Shown: piece after piece, positions 2,676-6,388 of the stretch
Position numbering within the stretch: the stretch's first letter is position 1
Layout: each line of letters starts with the position of its first letter
From: Candidatus Fermentibacterota bacterium
GTDB taxonomy: Bacteria > JAFGKV01
Direction: 5' to 3'
Assembly: GCA_030620115.1 (NCBI GenBank)
Contig: JAUXFG010000192.1
Coordinates: 1-6,566 of the forward strand
DNA length: 6,566 nt
Position numbers and translations under genes: made by a program
The notes under the pieces: generated by a model
What the model saw: only the letters and a program-made list of their open reading frames with translations
What the model was told of the DNA's origin: nothing
Database searches by the model: none

Positions 2676-2860
2676 CTAACCCGAACTTCTCACCAGCTTC
2701 CGGCTGTAACCGCCGATAAGCCACTGTCTGCTTCGTTACGCTTCATCGGCCTCCTCGACGTATCGCAGAGGATACGCCTGCGGGGTCCTCAGTCGCAAGC
2801 CTCGCAGCCAGAACCATCTCGGCGGTTTCGCTTCGAAACCCGGTGAGAAGTCCGGTCTAA
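2676..2860 (-). mobile_element. 185-bp MITE-like element, copy A, with 19-bp terminal inverted repeats
   Basis: Read on the minus strand, this segment aligns without gaps over 185 bp to 4817-5001. The central part (2728-2809 against 4868-4949) matches at about 74 of 82 positions by hand count. Both ends carry inverted repeats. One end reads TTAGACCGGACTTCTCACC (complement of 2842-2860) and the other CTAACCCGAACTTCTCACC (2676-2694). A hairpin stem, CGTATC/GATACG, is identical in both copies although its six-base loop differs. There is no transposase frame, so this is a non-autonomous element or a structured dispersed repeat. No clear target-site duplication is visible. It lies between two divergent exported-protein genes and could affect their promoters. 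Confidence 0.82.
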
Positions 2861-2931: not shown

Positions 2932-3753
2932 ATGATTCGAACTCACCTATTCCCAGTCGTCATGGTGACGATGATTGCGGTCGTCCTCGGCTCGTTGCCG
3001 GCCCCAGCGGAAGAATCGACGGTTCAAGACCCAGGGTTCCGGGATGCTGTTGATGCTTTGCGGCAAGCCAAAGGCTTCCCCAGTCTCCGGGACGATACAC
3101 TGGGCAGTTTCTTTATCCAGAAAAAGCTGGAGACACTCCTGATGGATCAGCAAGCCGACACACTCGACCCGGGCCGTGTGGTCGAAGCCGTCGGCGCTAC
3201 GCTGCACTGGCGCCATCGCAACTTCGTTGCCTCCGGAGATTCGCGACCAGATCTGTTGGCCGCCTTAAGGGAACAACCCGCCTTCCTCGCCGCGGTCCTG
3301 CAGCCTGAGGCTACTCACCTCGCCTTCGGTTGCGCGCAGGGAGCCAGGGGCCGGCTTTGGTGCGTCGGGTGCGTCATGCGCCAGATGGTTGAGCTAGGTC
3401 TCTTCGAAGGTGGACTAGCGTTGTTGGACGGGGGTGGGAGTCTGACATCGTTCACCCTGTCCGGCCGGACTCAGTATCCGCTCTTGCGAGCCAGGTTCTA
3501 CAAGGGCGACGAAGATCCGATCGAGTACCGCGGCCCGGATCACCATGTCGATGCGGAGGCCGACGACACCGGGGCCTTCCGCGTCAAACTCCCGATTTCG
3601 ATGTTCGGTGAAGGAGACTACCGGATCTTCCTGTACGTCAAGGAGCACTCAGATGCCAAGTACACGATTGCCGCGCATACACGCTTCCATGTCGGAGCGT
3701 CTCCATCCACCGCCACGGGCCCCCCTACGGTAGAACCAATCCAAGGGCCTTAG
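2932..3753 (+). CDS. Exported protein with probable degenerate CAP/SCP-like domain and C-terminal beta-rich domain
   Basis: The product has 273 residues. It begins with a signal peptide (MIRTHLFPVVM, a hydrophobic core, then LPAPA before E27), so it is secreted or periplasmic. Residues about 34-155 resemble the CAP/SCP-like fold: AVDALRQAKGFPSLRDD at the front, then FVASG, ALREQPAFLAAVLQPEATHLAFG (residues 111-133) and GRLWCVGCVMRQ. The usual CAP metal-site His/Glu pattern is not evident, so the domain looks degenerate. Three cysteines (134, 144, 147) sit close together. Residues about 165-257 are probably an Ig-like or carboxypeptidase-regulatory-like beta sandwich (TLSGRTQYPLLRARFYKG, DDTGAFRVKLPI, GEGDYRIFLYV). 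The Pro/Thr-rich tail ends at a TAG lying inside an element end repeat, so the original C-terminus may be altered. The gene is divergent from the C25 peptidase. I am confident it is an exported protein gene and only moderately confident of the CAP assignment. Confidence 0.82.
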   Translation: MIRTHLFPVVMVTMIAVVLGSLPAPAEESTVQDPGFRDAVDALRQAKGFPSLRDDTLGSFFIQKKLETLLMDQQADTLDPGRVVEAVGATLHWRHRNFVASGDSRPDLLAALREQPAFLAAVLQPEATHLAFGCAQGARGRLWCVGCVMRQMVELGLFEGGLALLDGGGSLTSFTLSGRTQYPLLRARFYKGDEDPIEYRGPDHHVDAEADDTGAFRVKLPISMFGEGDYRIFLYVKEHSDAKYTIAAHTRFHVGASPSTATGPPTVEPIQGP

Positions 3754-3778
3754 CCCGGACTTCTCACCAGCTTTCGCG
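3750..3778 (-). repeat. Solo terminal repeat of the 185-bp element family
   Basis: TTAGCCCGGACTTCTCACC at 3750-3768 matches the CTAACCCGAACTTCTCACC end of copy A at 16 of 19 positions, and the match continues into AGCTT and CG. Only this end is present; no internal element sequence follows. It supplies the stop codons of both the plus-strand CAP-like gene (TAG 3751-3753) and the minus-strand toxin remnant (TAA, 3752-3750). That marks a rearrangement junction. Confidence 0.7.
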
Positions 3779-3914
3779 GTTCCCTCCTCCGGGCCAACTT
3801 CTCCTGACGGGCGAGCCGAACCATGATGGCCTTGAGCTTGGCCATATCCTTGCCAGACTTGAGCGCTTTCCTGTAGTCCCTTTCAAACCGGCTTGTTGTC
3901 TTCAGCTTCAGCAT
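3750..3914 (-). pseudogene. yafQ: Truncated YafQ-family (RelE superfamily) toxin remnant
   Basis: This 54-codon frame starts at 3914 and overlaps the dinJ stop by 7 bases (ATGCTGA), the usual dinJ-yafQ arrangement. The first ~40 residues look like YafQ: MLKLKTTSRFERDYRKAL, then KSGKDMAKLKAIMVRLA. YafQ is an mRNA interferase of about 90 residues whose catalytic His/Asp residues lie in the second half (RDH, CHI and DWLLIY motifs). None of these is present. The frame instead continues as KLVRSPG and stops, and those last codons are element terminal-repeat sequence. The toxin is therefore almost certainly inactive. It converges on the CAP-like gene and overlaps its stop by 4 bases. A shorter active family is unlikely, because the whole catalytic part is missing. 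Confidence 0.82.
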
Positions 3915-4171
3915 TTATCGAGACTCGCGAACATCTCCTCGAAGCTGTCGTAGGAGTTCAGTTCCTCTCCCCGATCTGTCGCTTCGAAGGTCCGCCGAGT
4001 CATCTCGTTCGGCACCTCGACCGTAAATGGCAATCCATGCCGAAGCTGAATCTGCTTGTAGAAAATCGTGATGGCTTCAGTAGTGCTGAGCCCGAGAGTA
4101 TCCAGCACGGCCTCCACCTCATTCTTGAGGGATGGTTCAATCCGTGCACGCACTGTTGCTGTCCTAGCCAT
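3908..4171 (-). CDS. dinJ: DinJ/RelB-family antitoxin
   Basis: The product has 87 residues, against about 86 for E. coli DinJ, and appears intact. The N-terminal ribbon-helix-helix part reads TATVRARIEPSLKNEVEAV, then LDTLGLSTTEAITIFYKQI. It is followed by the family's LRHGLPF motif and a toxin-binding tail ending ELNSYDSFEEMFASL. In this family the N-terminus dimerises and represses its own promoter, while the C-terminus blocks YafQ. The ATG at 4171 follows GGAGGA with a 6-nt gap. A -35/-10 pair with a palindrome between them lies just upstream, so autoregulation is likely. The partner toxin downstream is truncated, so this is probably an orphan antitoxin that may still bind DNA. Confidence 0.93.
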   Translation of the reverse strand: MARTATVRARIEPSLKNEVEAVLDTLGLSTTEAITIFYKQIQLRHGLPFTVEVPNEMTRRTFEATDRGEELNSYDSFEEMFASLDKC

Positions 4172-4228: not shown

Positions 4229-4477
4229 TGTCCATATGGCGATTGCCATGTCAAGAGCAGCAGAGATCCCCGCGCGTTTCGTCGTTCGCTACTCAACTAA
4301 CTCGATATGCCGGCACTTCTGGGCATTGACATAAATCTCTAGTAAATCCATGGATTTACTAGAGATTTAGATGGCGACGTCCCATTCTCTCGTTTTATGG
4401 TCTCGGTCTGGCGCTACGGCTCGCCATAGGAATACAATATCCCGTAGAGAGATCCCGGAACCGTGGCCCCACCCTCA
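4229..4477. other. Non-coding stretch upstream of the repeat cluster
   Basis: I see no gene here. The region holds the 38-bp palindrome described separately and a small stem, TGGCG/CGCCA, around 4410-4427. A 67-codon frame beginning at 4371 starts next to the palindrome, has no ribosome binding site, and runs through the repeat units, so it is not credible. A TTGACA at 4326-4331 has no matching -10 at a normal distance. Confidence 0.5.
4332..4369. repeat. Perfect 38-bp palindrome
   Basis: TAAATCTCTAGTAAATCCA is followed at once by its exact reverse complement, centred on CCATGG with no spacer. It is more AT-rich than its surroundings. It is not followed by a T-run, so a terminator is unlikely. 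It could be a large operator, a recombinase site, or two inverted element ends joined after excision. No neighbouring gene reveals which. Confidence 0.9.
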
Positions 4478-4589
4478 GTCATTGCGAGGAGCCCTTCGAC
4501 AAGCTCAGGATAGAGTACGGCGACGAAGCAATCTCATCCACCTATTGAGATCGCCGCGCTGTCGCTCGCGATGACCAGCTCCTCTACCT
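4478..4589 (+). repeat. Palindromic dispersed repeat, unit 1 (112 bp)
   Basis: The unit begins GTCATTGCGAGGAG and contains the near-complement CTCGCGATGAC. Inside is a second stem made by ATCTCA and TGAGAT. It carries about 24 extra bases relative to unit 2, including CCCTTCGACAAGCTCAGG, which I recall as a widespread dispersed motif in its own right. The remaining 71 bp match unit 2 at about 66 positions. It resembles a REP/BIME-type hairpin repeat. Confidence 0.85.
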
Positions 4590-4677
4590 GTCATTGCGAG
4601 GAGGGTAGCGACGAAGCAATCTCATCCGCCCATTGAGATCGCCGCGCTGTCGCTCGCGATGACCAGCTCCTCCACAT
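4590..4677 (+). repeat. Palindromic dispersed repeat, unit 2 (88 bp)
   Basis: This is a direct copy immediately after unit 1, without the insertion. It runs from GTCATTGCGAGGAGG to CCAGCTCCTCCACAT. The GTCATTGCGAG and CTCGCGATGAC arms and the ATCTCA/TGAGAT inner stem are kept. The short tail AGCTCCTC between units is part of the repeat, not a variable spacer. Confidence 0.85.
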
Positions 4678-4704
4678 GTCATTGCGAGGAGGGTTCAGAC
4701 GAAG
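4678..4704 (+). repeat. Palindromic dispersed repeat, partial unit 3
   Basis: GTCATTGCGAGGAGGGT repeats the start of unit 2 and similarity continues to GACGAAG, after which the sequence diverges. The closing CTCGCGATGAC arm is missing, so this copy is broken. Confidence 0.8.
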
Positions 4705-4816: not shown

Positions 4817-5001
4817 TTATCCCGCTTTTTTCACCGGGTTTCGTCGCGAAGCGGCGAAGGTGGTTGCGGCTGCGAGGCTTGCGACCGAGGACGACGCAGG
4901 CGTATCCACTGTGATACGTCGAGGAGTCCGAGGAAGCGTGACGAAGCAGGCGGTGCCAGATCCGTCGCTGCAGCAGATAGTCGGTGAGAAATGCGGGTCA
5001 A
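4817..5001 (+). mobile_element. 185-bp MITE-like element, copy B
   Basis: This is the second full copy, opposite in orientation to copy A and aligning to it without gaps. Its ends are TTATCCCGCTTTTTTCACC (4817-4835) and, as reverse complement of 4983-5001, TTGACCCGCATTTCTCACC, which agree at 15 of 19 positions. The ends have diverged from copy A more than the core at 4868-4949 has, so this copy is probably older. The CGTATC/GATACG stem is intact. Its right end lies 17 bp before the coiled-coil gene start, so it replaces or contains that gene's promoter region. It codes for nothing convincing. Confidence 0.8.
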
Positions 5002-5008
5002 CCAACAA

Positions 5009-5015
5009 GAGGTGG
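5009..5015 (+). promoter_or_regulatory. Ribosome binding site that sets the coiled-coil gene start
   Basis: GAGGTGG lies 3 nt before the ATG at 5019 and just outside element copy B. It supports 5019 over the in-frame GTG at 4860, which lies inside the element and has no comparable site. Confidence 0.7.
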
Positions 5016-5018
5016 AAC

Positions 5019-6200
5019 ATGCCTGCGCATAAATCGCCACGCACGATGCCCCCAACCCCTCCCAAGGACGCGGGGCGGATCGATGAGAGCATTCCAAAGA
5101 TCACCGTGAAGAGTACGAAGCAAGATATCCTCGATGCCTACAAACAGCTTCAGCTCCGTCACGAGGGGGAAGAGAAAGACAAGCCGAAGGTAAAAGTGGA
5201 GGCTGAGCGGAAAAGACGGGAGAAAGTGGTGGAATCCGCCAAGACCGCTTCTGTTGAGGGGATTATTGAATCCATCGGCGCCCAGAAGCTCGATGTCACC
5301 GATTTGCTCAACAGCCTTTCGGGGAAGCTCACGGCTCAGGTGCAACGTCTCGCCGAAATAGAGGAGGCCATCACCATTGAGTCTGAGAGACTCTCGGGCC
5401 TGCACGACATCGAGATTGCTGCCGACACGCTCTCAATGCTCCTGGAACGCCACAAGGAGGCCGAAGTAGACTTCGACAAACGCATCGAAGAGAAGCGCCA
5501 GGAAGTTCAGGAGAATCTCGCGTCAGCACGTGCGGAGTATGAGAGCTGGACGGCCGCAACGAAAGAGGAATTCGAGGCTGGAATAGAGGAGAAGCAAGCC
5601 GAATGGAAACGGGAGCAGGCGAGCCACGATGAGCAGGTGAAGGAACGGAATGATAAGGCAAAGAAGGAACGAGAACGGGAGCAGGAGGAGTATGCCTATC
5701 TCCTCAAATTGAACAGAAAGCGCGACGAAGACATCTATAAGGCAAAGAAGGAATGGTTGGAGAAGGATCTTGCCGCGACAAGGGAAGCACAGGAGCAAGA
5801 GCTGGCCCAACGCGAGAAGGCAGTGGGCGCTCGGGAAGAAGAACTGAGCAGTCTACGCGAACAAGTTGAATCGTTCCCCAAGCAGCTCGACAAGGCCATT
5901 GCCGAAGCCCGGCTTGCCGCACGCAAGGAAGCAGAGAAGGAAGCAAAAGTCACGCGCGACCTCCGCGAGAAGGAGATCTCCGGCGAGAAGCAAGTCGCCG
6001 ACCTTCGTATCGAAACCCTGACGAACAAGGTGGAGGAGCTGGAAGCCCGGATCAAGGAGCTGAATCGGCAGGTCGAAGGAGCAACCACCAAGGTCCAGCA
6101 GATCTCCATCAAGGCCATCGAAGGCGCCGAAGGGCGAAAGGCATTGTCTGCGCTCAACGAGATAGCCCTCGAACAAGCCAAACGCCCCCGGGAGAGCTGA
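5019..6200 (+). CDS. Long coiled-coil protein of unknown function
   Basis: The product has 393 residues with no signal peptide or membrane segment, so it is cytoplasmic. Residues 1-30 are Pro/Lys-rich and probably disordered. A short conserved-looking motif follows, KSTKQDILDAYKQLQLRH. Residues about 85-125 look like a helical region (VEGIIESIGAQKLDVTDLLN). From about 125 to 370 the sequence is dominated by Glu, Lys, Arg, Gln and Ala in heptad-like order, for example RQEVQENLASARAEYESW and NKVEELEARIKELNRQVEG. This is a long coiled coil without SMC-type ATPase ends. The tail VQQISIKAIEGAEG resembles, from memory, a motif shared by similar uncharacterised bacterial proteins. The next solid gene is a P-loop ATPase on the same strand, so a joint complex is likely. 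A frame extending from 4860 would add 53 residues of element sequence and is rejected. Confidence 0.85.
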   Translation: MPAHKSPRTMPPTPPKDAGRIDESIPKITVKSTKQDILDAYKQLQLRHEGEEKDKPKVKVEAERKRREKVVESAKTASVEGIIESIGAQKLDVTDLLNSLSGKLTAQVQRLAEIEEAITIESERLSGLHDIEIAADTLSMLLERHKEAEVDFDKRIEEKRQEVQENLASARAEYESWTAATKEEFEAGIEEKQAEWKREQASHDEQVKERNDKAKKEREREQEEYAYLLKLNRKRDEDIYKAKKEWLEKDLAATREAQEQELAQREKAVGAREEELSSLREQVESFPKQLDKAIAEARLAARKEAEKEAKVTRDLREKEISGEKQVADLRIETLTNKVEELEARIKELNRQVEGATTKVQQISIKAIEGAEGRKALSALNEIALEQAKRPRES

Positions 6201-6388
6201 GCATCAAAGAGAAAAAGCTGGAGGGCCATGCTCCGCCATGGCCGCCGTTGGTGCCGATACTTACGGACGCGATCCGCCAGCGGGCGGACGTCCCTCCACA
6301 GGACAAGACGTATACATTCCTCGCTGGAGGGCCAATTGATTTTTTGTCATTGCTAACGCCAAGAACGTTAGGCATCTTAACGCCATGA
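6197..6388 (+). CDS. Possible small coupled gene, or frame-shifted extension of the coiled-coil protein
   Basis: Between the coiled-coil stop and the ATPase start, one frame reads through with coding-like composition: IKEKKLEGHAPPWPPLVP, ILTDAIRQRADVPPQDKTYT, FLAGGPIDFL, and it ends at TGA 6386-6388. That stop overlaps the ATPase ATG as ATGA, which is typical of translational coupling. No ATG, GTG or TTG begins the frame where it should. The listed start, CTG at 6197, is only nominal, and the first usual codons are TTG 6248 and GTG 6251, without a good ribosome binding site. Inserting one C in the run at 6185-6189 would fuse the frame to the coiled-coil protein. It may be a small protein with an unusual start, a C-terminal extension lost by an indel or sequencing error, or non-coding sequence. 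I recognise no family. Confidence 0.4.
   Translation: MSIKEKKLEGHAPPWPPLVPILTDAIRQRADVPPQDKTYTFLAGGPIDFLSLLTPRTLGILTP

Follow-up and report, generated by a model that had tools for sequence, protein, structure and literature searches.

A mobile, hairpin-bodied MITE family of several phyla, with two inverted copies in a Candidatus Fermentibacterota contig

The two inverted 185-bp copies in the contig analysed here (the window, one whole contig of 6,566 nucleotides from a host genome of 4.1 Mb in 296 contigs, 98% complete) belong to a mobile, hairpin-bodied MITE family with members in several phyla, and this conclusion is well supported. The family has the features of a MITE, namely complementary ends of 18–25 bp, a target duplication and a short, multi-copy, noncoding core. 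Our best explanation, to which we assign a probability of about 0.6, is that it depends on a transposase and carries a conserved hairpin body; both the transposase and the need for the hairpin are inferred. The sequence-only reading had proposed either a new non-autonomous element or an RNA-structured repeat family. The former is borne out by the high copy number, the precise ends, a 4-bp target duplication and the existence of filled and empty sites, and the latter agrees with the conservation of structure, seen as covariation in the host genome and across phyla; transcription has not been shown.

Copies in the contig and in the host genome

A repeat search and the family alignment placed the two mutually inverted copies exactly where they had been predicted, at 2676-2860 and 4817-5001, and MAFFT aligned them without gaps, as expected. 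The identity of about 90% claimed for an 82-bp stretch matches our hand count on that alignment, which gave some 8–9 mismatches in the best 82 columns; over their full length the copies are about 78–80% identical. The repeat search recovered them as an inverted pair of 182 nt with 78% complementarity and 1956 nt separating the arms. According to the family alignment, each 185-bp stretch consists of a 177-bp core with 4 bp on either side (Table 1), and these flanking bases form an intact duplication in copy A. The terminal inverted repeats are real, but the 19 bp first given to them fall short of the outer stem, which extends over about 25 bp across the family. Similarly, the CGTATC/GATACG stem, described as invariant, is so between copies A and B but covaries across the family, for instance from C-G to U-A at the inner pair; the hairpin to which it belongs runs the full length of the element, and the stem forms its apical helix. 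The interior of copy B (4836-4982, plus strand) was also matched by a model of the interior alone, with an E value of 3e-27.

Table 1. Positions of the element copies, their parts and an orphan end in the window.
Feature	Position	Strand	Sequence and basis
Copy A, left target duplication	2676..2679	+	CTAA (YTAR), identical to 2857-2860; YTAR duplication family-wide
Copy A, 177-bp core	2680..2856	-	CCCGAACTTCTCACC...GGTGAGAAGTCCGGT; hairpin sense strand is minus; covariance-model match 2677-2859(-), 183.4 bits; alignments
Copy A, apical helix	2759..2776	-	CGTATC-GCAGAG-GATACG; helix 6 of the host-genome structure
Copy A, right target duplication	2857..2860	+	CTAA; sequence and family-wide YTAR statistics
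Orphan left-end fragment, 27 bp	3750..3776	+	TTAG + CCCGGACTTCTCACCAGCTTTCG; 89% complementary to 2834-2860; in a direct repeat 88% identical to 2671-2702
Copy B, left flank at target-duplication position	4817..4820	+	TTAT; decayed relative to right flank TCAA
Copy B, 177-bp core	4821..4997	+	CCCGCTTTTTTCACC...GGTGAGAAATGCGGG; hairpin sense strand is plus; covariance-model match 4818-5000(+), 179.1 bits
Copy B, 5' internal-loop motif	4839..4850	+	TTTCGTCGCGAA; conserved across phyla (alignments)
Copy B, apical helix	4901..4918	+	CGTATC-CACTGT-GATACG, conserved context AGGCGTA...TACGTCGAG; helix 4 of the cross-genome structure
Copy B, 3' internal-loop motif	4968..4977	+	CTGCAGCAGA (family CCGCAGYAGA); alignments
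Copy B, right flank at target-duplication position	4998..5001	+	TCAA; sequence

The orphan fragment, which the sequence-only reading had missed, contributes to ORFs on both strands: its TAG terminates the ORF that ends at 3753, and read on the opposite strand it supplies the final codons of a truncated yafQ-like toxin gene, as judged from the translation and the Pfam YafQ_toxin profile. This gene (3744-3914, minus strand) encodes 54 aa that correspond to positions 2-48 of the 88 in the profile, and it adjoins a RelB/DinJ-type antitoxin gene (3908-4171, minus strand). At the left of the window, positions 2-2545 of the minus strand encode a large protein that contains a peptidase domain of the C25 (gingipain) type and runs off the contig edge. 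The longest ORF on the right (4860-6200, plus strand) begins within copy B; its true start is likely the ATG at 5019, located behind AGAGGTGG, which would place the end of copy B immediately before the ribosome-binding site.

BLAST of the host genome revealed at least 40 copies at E<1e-31, and their boundaries were consistent, so that neither of the outcomes that would have refuted the proposal, an absence of other copies or a disagreement of their ends, was met. With a covariance model trained on 23 copies, at least 132 matches were obtained among 150 scored candidates. The end pattern TANCCCGNANTTCTCACC, allowing up to one mismatch, occurred 239+254 = 493 times in the host genome compared with 0 times for the reversed control, which amounts to about one element end per 8 kb; the short conserved ends of the core read CCYG...CRGG. 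No reading frame was open in all copies. There are shorter and longer versions of the element, the longer ones with small palindromes (TCCCGCGTCnGACGCGGGA, TCCGCCAGCTGGCGGA) in their body.

Other repeats accompany the family. The palindrome TCCCGCGTCnGACGCGGGA replaces 7 bp of the element in several copies (L017, L023, L025 and L027). Another palindrome, TCCGCCAGCGGGCGGA, at 6273-6288 of the window, is a member of a small palindrome family that also occurs as insertions within element copies. Four loci (L064, L068, L069 and L074) present an identical nesting of element within element at the same site, a composite that may have spread as a unit. At 4520-4695 of the window, an 88-bp repeat of another family (GTCATTGCGAGGAG...GCGACGAAGCAATCTC) is present twice in tandem, its two units being 94% identical, and the host element copy at L020 is flanked by that family as well. 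A perfect 38-bp palindrome without spacer (TAAATCTCTAGTAAATCCA/TGGATTTACTAGAGATTTA) lies at 4332-4369, and a similar stretch is found beside the element in L072.

Target site, neighbouring genes and candidate transposases

Insertion of the element duplicates 4 bp, preferentially YTAR, and this is well supported. The outer positions of the flanking 4-mer (NTAN) agree in 68/105 cases (42.1 expected) and in 71/105 (50.3 expected), and in a set dominated by two Holophagae genomes they agree in 30/34 and 26/34; the commonest identical pairs of flanks are TTAG/TTAG, CTAG/CTAG and CTAA/CTAA. A 2-bp TA duplication was discarded in favour of 4 bp, as in the Holophagae-dominated set the agreement under the 2-bp model was at the level of chance (16/34, 17.6 expected). 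Empty relatives of occupied sites were sought by joining the flanks of an element and searching with the joined sequence. The clearest example is the filled site GGGC-GTAG-[element]-GTAG-CCTGG of L072 compared with the empty GGGC-GTAG-CCTGG of L118, L111 and L083, and a net agreement with 4 bp was also obtained for L004 and L070 against L078, for L082 against L127, for the nested set and for L109. L004 and L070 possibly represent a single event, as may the members of the nested set, and one duplicate is mutated in several pairs. The host sequence analysed consisted of stretches around element matches and not the whole genome, a sample biased towards copies.

From these observations we infer that a transposase acting in trans, perhaps lost by now, would cut the element at its ends and join it to YTAR sites. 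A transposase with matching terminal repeats, which the sequence-only reading had suggested seeking, was looked for in part of the known families, and none was found. The negatives cover the loci examined among the matches listed; most families remained outside the search, and absence of the enzyme is not shown. None of the eight DDE_Tnp_1 loci of the host genome had a matching terminal pair. An origin of the MITE from IS630 was rejected because the duplication is of 4 bp and not a 2-bp TA, and no IS630 DDE_3 was detected in the host genome. The only clear IS1380-type gene (PF13701) in ten genomes, located in the Thermoanaerobaculales genome, lacks these ends. Inspection by eye of the ORFs in long segments bounded by the terminal repeats, and beside single ends, gave no recognisable transposase. 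The failure to find a transposase bearing these ends counts against the MITE reading, as does the lack of evidence here for transcription or current movement of the element.

The Y1_Tnp genes deserve separate consideration, since the element could instead move as a single strand, with folded DNA serving as the substrate of a Y1/RAYT-type (HUH) transposase in the manner of REP or IS200/IS605 ends. This would explain the strand-specific folding and the conserved loop motifs described below without any transcription, and the host genome has four Y1_Tnp genes, some with degraded element ends nearby; however, ends occurring about once per 8 kb make such proximity weak evidence, and none of the four loci is bounded by a matching terminal pair. 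Transposases of the Y1 type are not known to duplicate their target, and the 4 bp duplicated here speak against them, leaving single-strand mobility of this kind improbable.

The copies are mostly intergenic. Judged with a home-made hexamer gene call, copies inside ORFs numbered 3/88 in the host genome, 0/39 in Holophagae and 2/15 in the others. About one quarter lie exactly at a stop codon: in 17 cases in the host genome, 11 in Holophagae and 9 in the others, that is, 37 genes for 142 copies, the stop of the neighbouring gene is the TAR of the element flank, and the duplication therefore preserves a stop. We infer from this arrangement that an element inserting into such a TAR codon would restore the stop and be tolerated; some of the cases may be truncated genes and not insertions at a native stop.

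Such a placement would also suit an element acting in cis on mRNA, whose hairpin sets the stability, processing or termination of host transcripts, mobility being secondary. For Correia and ERIC repeats, the literature describes effects of RNase III and RNase E (PMC10969869), and a role of this sort has been proposed for ERIC and Correia/NEMIS repeats. The covarying, strand-specific hairpin, the intergenic location and the direct abutment of about a quarter of the copies to a stop codon are all compatible with it, as is the sense strand lying in line with the gene in 13 of the 17 stop-abutting host cases. However, the 13:4 bias of the host genome did not replicate, as it was reversed in the two Holophagae genomes (2:9) and gone in the others (5:4); orientation at tandem-gene sites was evenly split (23:21), and no consistent neighbouring gene was noticed. 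The lack of a consistent bias relative to host genes leaves a simple mRNA role without support, and we consider it unlikely.

Conservation of the hairpin across genomes

A first scan of a genome collection with an exact pattern gave zero matches. In the relatives sample, the exact end pattern was present in 2 of 192 other genomes, with 46 matches and 1 match, respectively; the genome with 46 matches is of a different lineage and carries a 182-bp element whose first and last 45 or so bases are similar and whose loop order is identical. A 25-letter pattern combining an end with a motif then identified the MAGs Gemmatimonadetes ARS67, Planctomycetota OFTM49, Gammaproteobacteria SZUA-75, Deltaproteobacteria NC_groundwater_926, Acidobacteria 277c_3 and S145_17, Holophagae CSMAG_2570 and CSMAG_1988, and Thermoanaerobaculales SMBSF41. 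Their terminal-repeat counts ranged from 3 to 237 per genome (control, 0), and complete elements of 180–184 bp, alike in ends, loop motifs and fold, could be read from most of them. As the gammaproteobacterial copy is shorter (157 bp) and the deltaproteobacterial genome has three end matches only, the evidence is strongest for Gemmatimonadota, Planctomycetota and Acidobacteriota. Errors in the binning of MAGs could inflate the low-copy cases but hardly the genomes with tens of copies. Many copies in the Gemmatimonadetes MAG lie at contig ends, and the element possibly explains assembly breaks.

The interior-only model matched 13 of 116 genomes, with at least 26, at least 22 and at least 10 matches in three of them and at least 3 in a genus related to the host genome. 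Many of these matches keep a TA-containing flank with CCYG ends; in a few genomes the weaker matches were shorter hairpins without these ends, on which we do not rely. The outer repeats differ between genomes yet still pair (CCCGNANTTCTCACC; GCCCG..TTATTCATG; GCCTGG..TATGCACG), while the interior motifs and their spacing persist. Seven Holophagae loci (L231, L240, L242, L245, L247, L251 and L258) have larger, structured multi-hairpin inserts inside the hairpin body, such as GGGACATCGCGC...GCGTGGGC, possibly another mobile structured module. Searches of plasmids and phages for the element returned nothing, and among viral contigs there were 0 matches to the end pattern and three contigs with an apex-like pattern, these with weak model matches only.

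The consensus of the host copies folds from end to end, with -107 kcal/mol for one strand and -121 kcal/mol for the other, and the whole element forms one imperfect hairpin. In a structure of 69 pairs, 90.5% of the cells of the host copies pair, and double changes affect 24/69 pairs compared with 14.6±2.1 in shuffled and 7–12 in slid controls. As this structure was derived from the consensus, the percentage paired is favoured and the counts of changes are the better measure. Across genomes, an alignment of 15 interiors with the ends removed, two of them from a genus belonging to the family of the host genome, showed changes on both sides in 35/46 pairs, with a score of 0.491 compared with 0.233±0.017 for shuffled and at most 0.162 for slid controls. 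When eight 182-mers were compared without gaps, their middles being 42% identical on average, the count was 42/83 pairs and the score 0.395 compared with 0.178±0.017. The cross-genome structure comes largely from one member and was aligned by sequence, a circumstance that the slid and shuffled controls address only partly, and the statistics are not tree-aware. The hint of selection for structure in the sequence-only reading is in line with this covariation, found within the host genome and across phyla, and selection for base pairing over the element, as inferred from the alignments, appears well supported.

The sense strand folds better in 25/25 host copies, in 14/14 representatives and in 38/40 copies from three further genomes, where orientation was set by the interior model. 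This strand preference is well supported; its cause is unexplained. Three motifs are conserved: TTCGT[CA]GCGAGG close to the 5' base, CCGCAGYAGA close to the 3' base and, in the tip, AGGCGTA..TACGTCGAG.

An ordinary IS-derived MITE, with the palindromic body as a functionless by-product of its origin, would account for the precise ends, the target duplication, the high copy number and the degraded copies, all of which are usual for MITEs. Compensatory changes in 35 of the 46 interior pairs, a near-constant length over several phyla and a bias to one strand are unexpected of a neutral body, and we give very little weight to this explanation, already disfavoured by the data. Alternatively, transcription within the element could yield a self-contained structured RNA, itself the mobile or acting molecule, the DNA ends being secondary. 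The persistence of interior length, loop motifs and fold as the outer repeats change fits this idea; no evidence of a promoter, terminator or transcript was obtained, the precise 4-bp duplication points to DNA transposition, and this too seems highly doubtful.

For the transposase-dependent MITE that we prefer, we infer that the body is conserved because the element needs the hairpin of its sense strand, as RNA or as single-stranded DNA. Most likely, a protein that mobilises or processes the element would have to recognise the hairpin together with its loop motifs, which are TTCGTCGCGAGG/CCGCAGYAGA in the base and AGGCGTA..TACGTCGAG in the tip, and G-U pairs may permit folding of the strand without a perfect, unstable DNA palindrome. 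The reason for the structural conservation is thus inferred, not shown. One observation sits uneasily with this MITE reading: an element dependent on its terminal repeats should keep its ends and drift in the middle, and across genomes it is the outer repeats that differ and the interior motifs and spacing that persist. We entertain, tentatively and with less confidence, that these are a broadly distributed class of bacterial mobile elements, defined not by end sequences but by a hairpin that is conserved, strand-specific and fixed in length, with conserved loop motifs, the folded RNA or single-stranded DNA being part of mobilisation or processing and recognised by a still unknown protein, with outer repeats that vary by lineage. 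Because fold, length and loop motifs recur in several phyla despite heavy sequence change, many independent compensations are available for testing the structure, and a search for the partner can draw on its co-occurrence over many genomes.

Comparison with known repeat systems

The family was found neither in Rfam nor in the literature searched. Rfam gave no match in the window at gathering scores, nor any at E<=1 in four element-bearing loci from four other lineages, and literature searches with the end or apex sequences returned unrelated papers only, most subscription papers being outside their reach. If the element acts in transcripts, it would be a widespread RNA element missing from that RNA-family library, and if the hairpin is required for movement, it would represent an unusual way to mobilise DNA.

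The YTAR target and the CCC...GGG ends are reminiscent of piggyBac, which inserts at the 4-bp TTAA (PMC7351741), and of IS1380, by analogy only. REP elements are of 20–40 bp (PMC3733652); REP/REPIN sequences are high-copy and hairpin-forming like the present element, but membership is ruled out by its core of 177 bp and by its ends, which bound none of the four Y1_Tnp loci. YPAL/RU-2 of Yersinia has 168 bp, internal inverted repeats, no TA ends and duplications of 3–26 bp (PMC2229807). It is likewise palindromic, high-copy and of similar size, and the terminal repeats, the TA in the flank and the 4-bp duplication exclude our element from it. In Geobacter metallireducens, a 24-member family of predicted short RNAs is intergenic and has the central palindrome GRCGTAGCGCTGCTACGCC (PMC2700814), which resembles the apical helix GGCGTA..TACGCC; homology is unproven and the resemblance is only a lead. 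As far as the accessible part of that source goes, no cross-phylum mobile element is described for the family; should the two be related, the novelty of the core motif would be reduced.

The element resembles ERIC and NEMIS without being a member of either. Correia/NEMIS repeats of Neisseria, 107–155 bp long, are bounded by terminal inverted repeats with TA termini and give stem-loop transcripts (PMC2229807); terminal repeats are common to both, the lengths differ, and the single fold and length of the present element recur in unrelated phyla. ERIC (IRU, RU-1) is a mobile palindromic repeat of about 127 bp in enterobacteria with no confirmed mobilising enzyme (PMC2229807, PMC2267715). Like ERIC, our element is short, palindromic and mostly intergenic, forms a single long stem-loop from paired ends and duplicates its target. 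Unlike ERIC, it has a 177-bp core (180–184 bp as a whole, a length that excludes membership), a 4-bp YTAR duplication, a high GC content, conserved loop motifs and a multi-phylum distribution, whereas the known palindromic repeats (ERIC, NEMIS, RUP and YPAL) have been described from restricted lineages, with their mover mostly unknown.
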